Both the position numbers and the translations under genes were made by a program. Positions 3,210 through 21,595 of a DNA stretch of 34,394 nt are shown piece after piece; positions within the stretch are counted from its first letter, which is position 1; each line of letters begins with the position of its first letter. Where the stretch lies: positions 1 through 34,394 of the forward strand of contig JAGVYZ010000046.1 of NCBI GenBank assembly GCA_018303025.1, read 5' to 3'. This DNA comes from Candidatus Woesearchaeota archaeon. Lineage in GTDB: Archaea > Nanobdellota > Nanobdellia > SCGC-AAA011-G17 > GW2011-AR20. A model generated the notes under the pieces. That model did not search any database and was not told the DNA's origin. It saw only the letters and a program-made list of their open reading frames with translations.

Positions 3210-3238
3210 ATTTGTAAATAAAAATGGACGCTGTGGGA

Positions 3239-3312
3239 CTTTCCGAAGCTTTATTTTCTTTCTTCAAGGTGTTCTTTTCCCCGAAGGCTTTTCTTACAAG
3301 AAAAAAGCTTCT
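3239..3312 (-). other. Putative T-loop (59/60) intron of tRNA-Ala
   Basis: GTGGG/CCCAC T-stem flanks TTC...GAA helix, AGT 3' bulge, GAAGCTTT/AAAGCTTC inner helix; excision restores TTCAAAT. Confidence 0.65.
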
Positions 3313-3334
3313 TTTGAACCCACGATCCCTCCCT

Positions 3335-3352
3335 ATTTAGACTATGATTGTT
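3335..3352 (-). other. Canonical 37/38 intron of tRNA-Ala
   Basis: BHB: TTAG/CTAA 4-bp central helix, 3-nt bulges CAA and ATA. Confidence 0.7.
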
Positions 3353-3430
3353 TGCTAAGGGAAGATTCTAACCGAGCTAAACTAAGCGCCCCTATAAATA
3401 AAAGAAAAATTATGCCTTAAAAATCTATCT

Positions 3431-17334: not shown

Positions 17335-17554
17335 TTGAATTCCTTGTATTAATTATCTTACAGTCGTTTTAAAAAGCTTTTCCTTTGAGCTTTTCTTTCT
17401 GTAGAAAGAAAATCTTCATCAAAAGAAAGACAAAATGAGAAACCTTCAGGAAAGAAAACACGAAAAAGAAAGAAGCAGAATGAAAACCTTCAGAAAAAAG
17501 AAAGACAAAATGTGAAAATGAAATATGGAGTACATGAGGGTACCAGGATTTGAA

Positions 17555-17648: not shown

Positions 17649-17850
17649 CCCGTAGTGTGTACTCCAAAATAAAATTCATAATTGCCTTTAATAAACCTTA
17701 CTAAATTAAAAAATTTAAAATAAAATTAGAAAAAAGAAATTTATTTTCAATGAAAGCTAACTGTTTTCTTTTATCGAAGTATTAAGCTTTGCTTAATGCT
17801 AGAAGAGCTTGACTCTTCTTTGATTTTCTTTTCAAAAAGAAAAGCTTCAT

Positions 17851-18627
17851 TTACTTCTTCTTAGCAGCTTCTTTGCCTGCAGGTTTTGCAGCAGGTGCAG
17901 CCTTAGCACCAGCAGCTGGTTTAGCTTCTTTACCAGCAGGAACAGCTTCTTTCTTGACTTCTGTACCAGGTGCAGCAGCAGCTTCTGCTTTCTTAACTCC
18001 ACCAGGTGCAGCTTCTGCTTTCTTAGCTTCTTCAGCAGCTTTCTTAGCTTCTTCTTCAGCAGCTTTCCTTTCTTTCTCTTTCTGTAAGACTGTCTGAATT
18101 GATTTTAACTCATTATCTAATCTTTCTTTTTTCTCATTAGGAACTTCAGTTACTTTAGCATCAATTTCATGTTTGTATTTTCCATTATCAATTTCTCCGC
18201 AAACTTCTTTTCCTGTTTTCCCTTCAACTAAAACACCTAAAGAACTGCATGAGCCAACAACACTTTTAACAACACTTGTAAAACTATTATGCAAAATAGA
18301 ATCTTGTTTCATTAAACTAATTTTAACTACTTGCTCTATTCCTATATTAGCAACTTTATTCATATTAGGTTCTCCAGAACCTTTGTCTATACCAGCTTCT
18401 TTTTTAATTAATTCAGAAACAGGTGGTGTACCTGCAGTAATAGTATAATTTTTTCCATCAACTTCAACAGTAACAGGAATCTTCATTCCTTTAAAATGAG
18501 TTGTTTTCTCATTTATTTTAGCAATAACTTCTCCAATATTAATTCCTTTAGGGCCTAATGCTTGAGCTAATTGTGGAGTAACACCTGCCTTCCCGCCATC
18601 AATCATTAATTGTATTTTTTCTGCCAT
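17851..18627 (-). CDS. rpl11: Ribosomal protein L11 with long Ala/Lys/Glu-rich C-terminal extension
   Basis: KIQLMIDGGKAGVTPQLAQALGPKGINIGEVIAKIN...; about 95-aa low-complexity tail. Confidence 0.95.
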   Translation of the reverse strand: MAEKIQLMIDGGKAGVTPQLAQALGPKGINIGEVIAKINEKTTHFKGMKIPVTVEVDGKNYTITAGTPPVSELIKKEAGIDKGSGEPNMNKVANIGIEQVVKISLMKQDSILHNSFTSVVKSVVGSCSSLGVLVEGKTGKEVCGEIDNGKYKHEIDAKVTEVPNEKKERLDNELKSIQTVLQKEKERKAAEEEAKKAAEEAKKAEAAPGGVKKAEAAAAPGTEVKKEAVPAGKEAKPAAGAKAAPAAKPAGKEAAKKK

Positions 18628-18659: not shown

Positions 18660-19130
18660 TCAATCAGCATCTATATTTTCTTCCTCGCCTTCTCTTCTTA
18701 TTACTTTAATTGAATCTATTTTTACAGTAATTGGGATTGGAACAGCGCTTTCTAAAATTTCAACAACAGCTTCTTCTTTTCCTAATTCTACTCTTGTAAC
18801 TCTTGCTTTTTCTCTTTTGAAAGGGCCAGATATAATTTCAACTATATCGCCTTTTTGAATATTAACTTGCTGAGCAACTGTCTGGTCAATCATTCCCTCG
18901 ATTTCTTCTATTTTTAAGGGTTTAGGTAATATACCATTTACATAAGGAACACCCTGATAAGCTTCTCTTATTTCATTCATATCCTCTGCTTCAACAATAA
19001 CATAACCCCTCATGTCATGAGGATGCATTAAACTGTAAATTTTTTTATGTTTCTTTTTAGCATTAGAGCTAATGAAATCCATAACTTGTTCTTCCCTGTT
19101 TACAGTTGCTTTTATTACATATAATGCCAT
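18660..19130 (-). CDS. spt5: Transcription elongation factor Spt5/NusG
   Basis: NGN + KOW: HPHDMRGYVIVEAEDMNEIREAYQGVPYVNG, KGDIVEIISGPFKREKARVTRV. Confidence 0.93.
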   Translation of the reverse strand: MALYVIKATVNREEQVMDFISSNAKKKHKKIYSLMHPHDMRGYVIVEAEDMNEIREAYQGVPYVNGILPKPLKIEEIEGMIDQTVAQQVNIQKGDIVEIISGPFKREKARVTRVELGKEEAVVEILESAVPIPITVKIDSIKVIRREGEEENIDAD

Positions 19131-19188
19131 TTTTTTGTATCTTGTTTTTTTCTTTTATCGAAGATTTTCTTTTGCAAAAGAAAAGCTT

Positions 19189-19368
19189 CTATCTTACCAC
19201 TGCAAACAACATGTTTATAATGAATCCTATTAATCCTATTAATAATGCACCAATAGCAGAAACTTTAGCTACTGTCAGGAATTCTTCTTTTCCTGGCTTT
19301 TTTGTTACAAGCAAAACTCTCTTGTACTCAACTAAAGTCATTTTCAAGCTACTGATTACATTAACCAT
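19189..19368 (-). CDS. secE: Protein translocase SecE (not in ORF track)
   Basis: MVNVISSLKMTLVEYKRVLLVTKKPGKEEFLTVAKVSAIGALLIGLIGFIINMLFAVVR; directly upstream of spt5. Confidence 0.85.
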   Translation of the reverse strand: MVNVISSLKMTLVEYKRVLLVTKKPGKEEFLTVAKVSAIGALLIGLIGFIINMLFAVVR

Positions 19369-20330: not shown

Positions 20331-20464
20331 TTTTTTAAAAATGTTTTTTTATTTTTCTTTCAAGACATTCAGCTTCTTTTTTCGAAGTCCTAATTGTTTT
20401 CTTTTATCGAAGACTTATTGTTTTTCTTTATTGAAGATTTCTTTTCCAAAAAAGAAAGCTTCCT

Positions 20465-21595
20465 TTACACAAATTCAATGCCTAAATCATTCTCCATCTT
20501 GCTTTTCTTGCCTTCAAGAGAACCCTTTCTTCCGCCCAAAATTTGAGGAGAATTAACACCAGTAACAATAACCATTGTTCTTATTGTTCCTTCTAAATCT
20601 TCTGAAATTTGTGCACCCCAGATTATCCTGGCATCCTCGTCTAATTTATCAGAAATTGTTTCAACAACTTTTCTTGCTTCTTCTAATGTCATATCCAATC
20701 CACCAGATACATTTATCAAAGCACCATTAGCGCCAGCAATATTAACATCTAATAATGGATTATTAATTGCTTTTTCAACAGAATCAATAGCTCTATTAGC
20801 CCCATCAGATTCACCAACTCCAATCATAGCAACACCGCCATTCGACATTACTGCTTTTATATCTGCAAAATCTAAATTAACTAAACCTGTTTTAGTTACT
20901 AATTCAGCAATGCCTTTTACAGCATTTGTTAAAATTTCATCAGCAACTTTAAATGCAGTATGCAATGGCAAATCAGGAGCTAACTCTAATAGTTTATCAT
21001 TAGGAATAACAATTAATGTATCTACCATGCTCTCTAATCTTTCTAAGCCATCAACTGCATTTTGATATCTTTTGTTTCCTTCCATTGAGAAAGGCATTGT
21101 TACAATAGCCACAGTTAATGCATTATTCTTCTTAGCAATATCAGCAACAACAGGTGCTGCACCTGTACCAGTTCCTCCACCTAAACCACAAGTAATGAAA
21201 ACTAAATCACAGCCAGCCATTGCTTTTTTAATATCACCTTCACTTTCTCTGGCAGCTTCCTCTCCTACTTTAGGATTAGAACCAGCACCCAAACCCTTTG
21301 TTAATTCTTTTCCAATTAAAATTTTTATAGAAGCATTTGTATATAATAAGTCCTGAGCATCAGTATTAATAGCAATTGTTTCAGAACCAGCAATACCAAT
21401 TTCAGTCATCCTGTTAATAGTATTATTTCCTCCACCACCTACGCCAATAACCTTGATTTTAGCTTTCTGGGCAGCAATAATCAGTTCTAACTCATCGTCT
21501 AATTCAGAAGTCTTTTTTACCTCTCTTTTCAATGAAAAATCCTGTTGGTTCATTCTTGCTTTGTTAATAATAGATTCCATAAAATATAAGCTCAA
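20465..21595 (-). CDS. ftsZ: Cell division protein FtsZ
   Basis: [31 protein letters not shown] tubulin signature, [14 protein letters not shown]. Confidence 0.96.

Follow-up and report, generated by a model that had tools for sequence, protein, structure and literature searches.

The list of BHB intron positions in archaeal tRNA genes (PMC4090602) includes the T-loop position 59/60; Archaea are known to have introns at this position, multiple introns in one tRNA and a spread of similar introns between tRNA genes (PMC4090602, PMC4033280, PMC8450103). Transposition of tRNA introns among genes has been inferred, and its mechanism is unsettled (PMC4090602). Non-canonical introns have been linked to heteromeric or epsilon2 splicing endonucleases (PMC4033280) and to extra endonuclease loops (PMC12397907). 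For Nst1, PMC3655853 gives only two intron-containing tRNAs; for N. equitans, a beta subunit and split tRNAs are described (PMC3655853, PMC4033280). In the open-licence literature we found no report of 59/60, multiple or spreading tRNA introns in DPANN/Woesearchaeota, no report of tRNA introns sharing a core with a non-tRNA repeat, and nothing relevant on mirror repeats or triplexes together with tRNA introns. Introns at 59/60 are therefore not new in themselves; the novelty would lie in their repeat-derived spread, and in its occurrence in Nanoarchaeota.

The window (the whole stretch of 34,394 nucleotides analysed here) is contig C3 of a Candidatus Woesearchaeota assembly of 1.06 Mb with 28.8% GC and 87.5% completeness, and all 55 contigs of the genome were included in the searches. 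The gene under study is a tRNA-Ala gene on the minus strand, 3391..3226 plus the discriminator A at 3225, with G3:U70 present and three exons (3391-3353, 3334-3313, 3238-3225). Its parts are as follows.

3353..3391, minus strand: exon 1 (positions 1-37), with the GGGCGCT acceptor strand, D-arm, TTCCC anticodon stem and TTAGCA; anticodon AGC at 3356-3354; from the cloverleaf scan and ARAGORN.
3335..3352, minus strand: intron of 18 nt at the canonical position 37/38, with central helix TTAG/CTAA, bulges CAA and ATA and inner helix AC/GT of 2 bp; from the sequence and ARAGORN, i(40,18).
3313..3334, minus strand: exon 2 (positions 38-59), with A38, GGGAG, GGATC, the T-stem strand GTGGG and TTCAAA.
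3239..3312, minus strand: intron of 74 nt at T-loop position 59/60, with BHB TTCA (3318-3315)/GGAA (3244-3241) and bulges AAA and AGT.
3311-3304 and 3252-3245, minus strand: inner helix of the 74-nt T-loop intron, GAAGCTTT / AAAGCTTC.
3268..3311, minus strand: core of a dispersed hairpin repeat within the T-loop intron, made up of a pyrimidine arm, then a purine arm and its mirror (nhmmer E=2.9e-10).
3225..3238, minus strand: exon 3 (positions 60-73), with T60, CCCAC, AGCGTCC and A73.

We are confident that the insertion at 59/60 is a genuine BHB intron of tRNA-Ala; it is probably spliced out, and it would have originated by insertion and spread of a repeat. After both excisions the tRNA reads GGGCGCT TA GTTT AGCTCGGTTA GAAT C TTCCC TTAGCAA GGGAG GGATC GTGGG TTCAAAT CCCAC AGCGTCC A. 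The original prediction, made from the letters of this DNA, held that the exon halves pair (GGGCGCT/AGCGTCC with G3:U70, and the T-stem GTGGG/CCCAC) and that removal of a 74-nt insert (3312-3239) restores TTCAAAT, and both points are correct. It also ascribed a canonical BHB to the 18-nt intron at 37/38; the TTAG/CTAA helix and the two 3-nt bulges are there, but the inner helix has just 2 bp. With the T-loop insert removed, ARAGORN independently gives the same place and length for this intron, and the anticodon agc, which the original prediction leaves unmentioned. The T-loop motif had been called relaxed, with a centre of 3 bp; it is instead a standard 3-4-3 motif, in which the 3-nt bulges AAA and AGT flank a 4-bp centre, TTCA/GGAA, with one A-G mismatch. 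The insertion point lies between 59 and 60 (TTCAAA, insert, T60), and the cut positions in the bulges agree with it. The weak points of tRNA-Ala are this mismatch and the 2-bp inner helix of the anticodon-loop BHB; according to PMC4033280, alpha4 enzymes cut canonical BHB motifs only. Both deviations are reported to be poorly tolerated by such enzymes. T-rich tracts are present within the T-loop intron and could act as archaeal transcription terminators.

ARAGORN detects no tRNA in the Ala precursor and a complete tRNA-Ala(agc) once both introns are excised. When a 74-nt deletion was slid along the gene, ARAGORN recovered the tRNA at offsets 62-70 only, i.e., across the T-loop. In an intron-tolerant cloverleaf scan the gene scores 20.3, true tRNAs scoring at least 19.1 and the best noise 14.5. 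Chance is excluded for tRNA-Ala, since its score lies above the noise and only T-loop deletions restore the tRNA. The claim of two BHB introns in this gene is also borne out by 13 more genes with a 59/60 insert and by covariation elsewhere.

The same scan of the genome gave 23 tRNA genes at scores of at least 19.1; in another scan, with a BHB-type 3' end required, an insertion exactly at 59/60 was found in at least 14 tRNA genes (Ala, Lys, Trp, two Glu, three Gly, two Leu and four of unsettled isotype). With about 35 tRNA genes seen in all, the share is about 40% (the total being our own tally from the scan, ARAGORN, Rfam and hand inspection, not a curated set). The inserts are 43 to 92 nt long. 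All 14 precursors escape ARAGORN, which recognises 13 of these genes once the 59/60 intron is taken out. In 12 of the 14 the last intron helix is fully paired with T54-R57 (TTCA with TGAA or TGGA, TTCG with CGAA); the other two, Ala and C40:11822, have one A-G mismatch in the centre. The 59/60 introns of this genome therefore follow the standard 3-4-3 BHB, and a relaxed BHB is not a trait of the family, 12 of its 14 members having the complete 4-bp centre and 3-nt bulges. By BLAST, the T-loop intron of tRNA-Ala is 93-100% identical over 51-59 nt to those of the C28 Glu and C4 Leu genes and of the genes on C50 and C52 (MAFFT, when used to align the T-loop introns, misplaces four of the 3' ends). 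Similar intron sequences across isotypes, a mark of transposing introns of the Thermoproteales kind, are thus present here.

Several other tRNA genes carry insertions of their own. As the original prediction stated, tRNA-Pro and tRNA-Phe of the window have two each, whose removal yields clean tRNA-Pro(TGG) and tRNA-Phe(GAA). In tRNA-Pro(TGG), 17664-17535 on the minus strand, they lie near 3/4 (acceptor stem) and near 53/54, and ARAGORN detects the gene after both are removed and not before. In tRNA-Phe(GAA), 34258-34151 on the minus strand, they lie at about 5/6 and about 17/18. Here both ARAGORN and Rfam give, in place of the full gene, a truncated one of 69 nt whose acceptor stem pairs poorly. 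The tRNA-Glu(CTC)-like gene C28:15802-16021 has a repeat-like D-arm intron besides its 59/60 intron. Two members of the T-loop-intron family look damaged: C35:66156, Leu(CAA)-like, has no 3' half, and C50:98741 has a rearranged T-arm.

A strict pattern, GGTTCRAAN{32,62}YGAAAGTCC, was used to search related genomes. Of the 104 genomes of the order, 23 contain it, with 51 hits in total against 2 for a reversed control pattern; in the phylum it is present in 104 of 382 genomes. Twenty order loci were examined, 19 from other genomes and one from this, and each proved to be an entire tRNA gene whose 59/60 intron has a complete centre. Since the pattern leaves both R57 and Y free, the agreement between them tests the pairing. 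Exon R57 and intron Y form A:T in 39 cases, G:C in 10, and G:T and A:C in one case each (Fisher p = 9e-9; p = 1e-5 when the test is limited to distinct sequences of other genomes); these values are optimistic, related hits being non-independent, and both pair types occur in several families. Intron sequences differ strongly between genomes and are often alike inside one genome. A comparison of empty and filled sites was possible with relatives no closer than the same family: one such relative (G007) has a tRNA-Ala(GGC), L245, whose 59/60 site holds 15 nt of unrelated sequence, and other genomes have an intron-free Ala(GGC). At the level of sequence, these orthologues support the exon boundaries proposed for tRNA-Ala and show a repeated use of the 59/60 site.

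When the T-loop introns are compared with the whole genome by BLAST, dozens of matches fall outside tRNA genes, among them copies 91-96% identical over 52-58 nt (C2:5559-5616, C6:3905-3956, C47:4376-4427). An iterated profile finds 86 copies of the repeat at E <= 1e-3, and zero in each of three control genomes (reversed, Markov-simulated and locally shuffled). Of these, 18 lie within tRNA introns (12 at 59/60 and 6 at other positions), 6 follow a tRNA gene directly, and the remaining 62 are elsewhere; if the margin allowed for tRNA trailers is changed, the copies outside the listed tRNA genes number 67. Of these 67, 18 start -1 to +5 nt from a same-strand stop codon (for example, C47:4426, C30:8267, C10:19520 and C8:5170), 0.8 being expected from random intergenic points; one copy occupies the mirror position on the opposite strand. 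It is as if the hairpin repeat marked mRNA 3' ends. The copies of the window outside the tRNA-Ala gene include the following.

17388..17429, plus strand: repeat copy between genes, lying downstream of tRNA-Pro, which is on the opposite strand.
17822..17848, minus strand: repeat copy starting right after the stop of the rpL11-like ORF 17851-18627, in sense orientation.
19148..19189, minus strand: non-tRNA repeat copy upstream of the NusG-like ORF 18660-19130 (E=1.1e-10).
20420..20462, minus strand: repeat copy starting right after the stop of the ftsZ-like ORF 20465-21595, in sense orientation.

The intergenic copies of the window were also considered as mRNA introns, and this was rejected: the upstream FtsZ, L11 and GlyRS genes end normally before the repeat.

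The repeat opens with one strand of a 4-bp stem; a pyrimidine arm, a short loop and a purine arm complementary to the first follow, then the stem closes, and a linker of 3 nt leads to a third arm, again of purines. The stem varies with compensation (GAAG/CTTC, GTAG/CTAC, GCGG/CCGC). Among 70 informative copies, 61 have a third arm that mirrors the second (purine) arm exactly, as a rule at a distance of 8 nt, and only 11 have an exact direct copy; mirror beats direct 53:2. The copies are related and do not amount to 70 independent events, but the mirror relation holds for arms that differ in sequence. Such symmetry is of no help to ordinary base pairing; a purine-purine-pyrimidine triplex would need it. 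In two genomes of another family of the order (G074 and G073), T-loop introns likewise have counterparts that lie outside tRNA genes (L255, L258, L260, L265, L266). A second repeat type (AAGGRTTGCAYCCTT...CAACCTGC / CCCTTCACGAACCTG) was noticed in anticodon-loop introns (C54:2269-2484, C36:20006-20214), and a similar form of it in T-loop introns of two other genomes (G059 and G060).

The splicing endonuclease is encoded by one gene (C52:2767-3297; 176 aa; PF02778 and PF01974; one copy). It aligns without gaps with M. jannaschii EndA (1a79) over residues 28-176; its best PDB match is the catalytic subunit of N. equitans (3iey_A), and the sequences closest to it in named genomes, at 60-71% identity, belong with few exceptions to MAGs of Woesearchaeota and Nanoarchaeota. 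A broad-specificity enzyme, heteromeric or epsilon, had been predicted; the finding does not support it, being a single PF01974 protein, gapless against the M. jannaschii alpha4 enzyme, the PF01974 search of this 87.5%-complete genome revealing no beta subunit or three-unit fusion. Exactly one PF01974 match was found in 19 of the 21 genomes searched, in open frames of 177-239 aa. The protein has the traits of an alpha4-type subunit, i.e., a single subunit of about 180 aa with N and catalytic domains and no Crenarchaea-specific loop, and from this subunit type we infer assembly as a homotetramer (alpha4). There is also one rtcB gene (E = 1e-169). The case would thus fit a plain alpha enzyme acting on near-strict BHB motifs at a non-canonical position. 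According to the original prediction, a homomeric enzyme together with intact Ala genes for all GCN codons would speak against T-loop excision. The enzyme does look homomeric, but such a set of Ala genes was not found: the sole other tRNA-Ala found, C34:6072-6142, has the anticodon CGC and reads GCG, so the tRNA-Ala(AGC) gene seems to be needed.

This bears on the view that the gene is a pseudogene, killed by insertion of a repeat into its T-loop, with AGC as a reflection of decay. An A34 anticodon is unusual in Archaea; apart from the ARAGORN AAG call at C27, no other was accepted among the tRNAs read, and the other splice registers of the anticodon loop, checked by eye, give none of GGC, TGC and CGC. 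The nearest relatives of the spliced gene are intron-free tRNA-Ala(GGC) genes (L219, L220, L233, L234); the closest orthologues in other genomes carrying GGC, the sequences suggest that AGC here replaces it. The AGC anticodon could indicate a decaying gene or an assembly error, and the two damaged-looking members of the T-loop-intron family also speak for decay. Against it, both halves of tRNA-Ala pair perfectly across both insertions, the insertion is common to 13 other tRNA genes, many of them apparently sole for their anticodon, and the intron end covaries with an exon base. Furthermore, GCT makes up 47% of the Ala codons of the genome (GCC, 4%), and no second gene reading GCT was found among the tRNA genes of this 87.5%-complete genome. 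We consider a pseudogene very unlikely.

That the mature tRNA keeps the insertion, its T-arm being extended by it, has hardly any likelihood in our opinion: nothing was found in its favour, the insert varies from 43 to 92 nt among the genes here and has 15 nt in a relative, and nearly every family member ends with the same BHB 3' side. It may also be argued that the T-loop introns are ordinary and old, their likeness to intergenic repeats being a convergence of A/T-rich hairpins. The repeat is indeed A/T-rich and of low complexity, and the T-loop intron on C43 is unlike it; the stretches of 91-96% identity with non-tRNA copies and the empty randomised genomes make convergence improbable.

For a spliced BHB intron of repeat origin the following course can be proposed. 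In the precursor, exon bases T54-T55-C56-R57 would form a helix with YGAA near the intron's end, and one 3-nt bulge per strand, AAN and AGT, would remain between the T-stem and the intron inner helix. The archaeal splicing endonuclease would cut after A59 and before T60, RtcB would ligate the ends, and the 37/38 intron would be removed likewise; we presume that this splicing takes place in vivo. The core repeat of the intron probably came from elsewhere in the genome; it would have inserted into a T-loop site able to form a BHB and then spread between tRNA genes. On this view the repeat would be mobile, and the transfer would have run from repeat to intron, not the reverse. The shared position and the shared repeat suggest how tRNA introns arise and spread. 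It is tempting to go further and regard the hairpin with its mirror third arm as a mobile unit of Woesearchaeota that inserts at stop codons in sense orientation and into tRNA loops, where it becomes a BHB intron and a source of new tRNA introns, possibly through reverse splicing at the RNA level; we hold this broader proposal to be speculative and rather doubtful.

In this genome a candidate donor, the dispersed repeat, is visible together with its tRNA introns, and the phylum-wide use of the 59/60 site with differing intron sequences makes gain and loss traceable. The rule connecting many non-canonical introns with heteromeric or loop-bearing endonucleases (PMC4033280) is weakened, since these genomes apparently encode one plain alpha-type subunit and have a mostly strict 3-4-3 motif. 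In practice, genomes of this kind may be given too few tRNAs and too low a completeness, as ARAGORN misses all 14 precursors.

Bacterial REP/MITE-type repeats are short dispersed hairpins with many intergenic copies. The repeat described here is similar in both respects, and a Y1 transposase gene is present in the genome (C20:8804-9151); as a mobiliser of the repeat it was rejected, the ends of its element being unlike the repeat, and, unlike in REP/MITE systems, there is no sign that this Y1 element carries or mobilises it. With N. equitans and Nst1 our genome shares the broad lineage and, with the former, the best match of the endonuclease; the available parts of PMC3655853 and PMC4033280 mention no repeat-derived T-loop intron family for either. 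The non-canonical archaeal introns of PMC4090602 are similar in the 59/60 position, in the BHB at the junction and in the presence of a 37/38 intron in the same gene; the difference is that here one T-loop position is interrupted in some 40% of the known tRNA genes of the genome, and that the hosts are Woesearchaeota/Nanoarchaeota with an apparently alpha-only endonuclease. The transposing introns of Thermoproteales offer a parallel for near-identical introns across isotypes in one genome; in the available parts of PMC4090602 and PMC4033280 those are described among tRNA genes only, whereas the core found here also occurs in dozens of non-tRNA copies.
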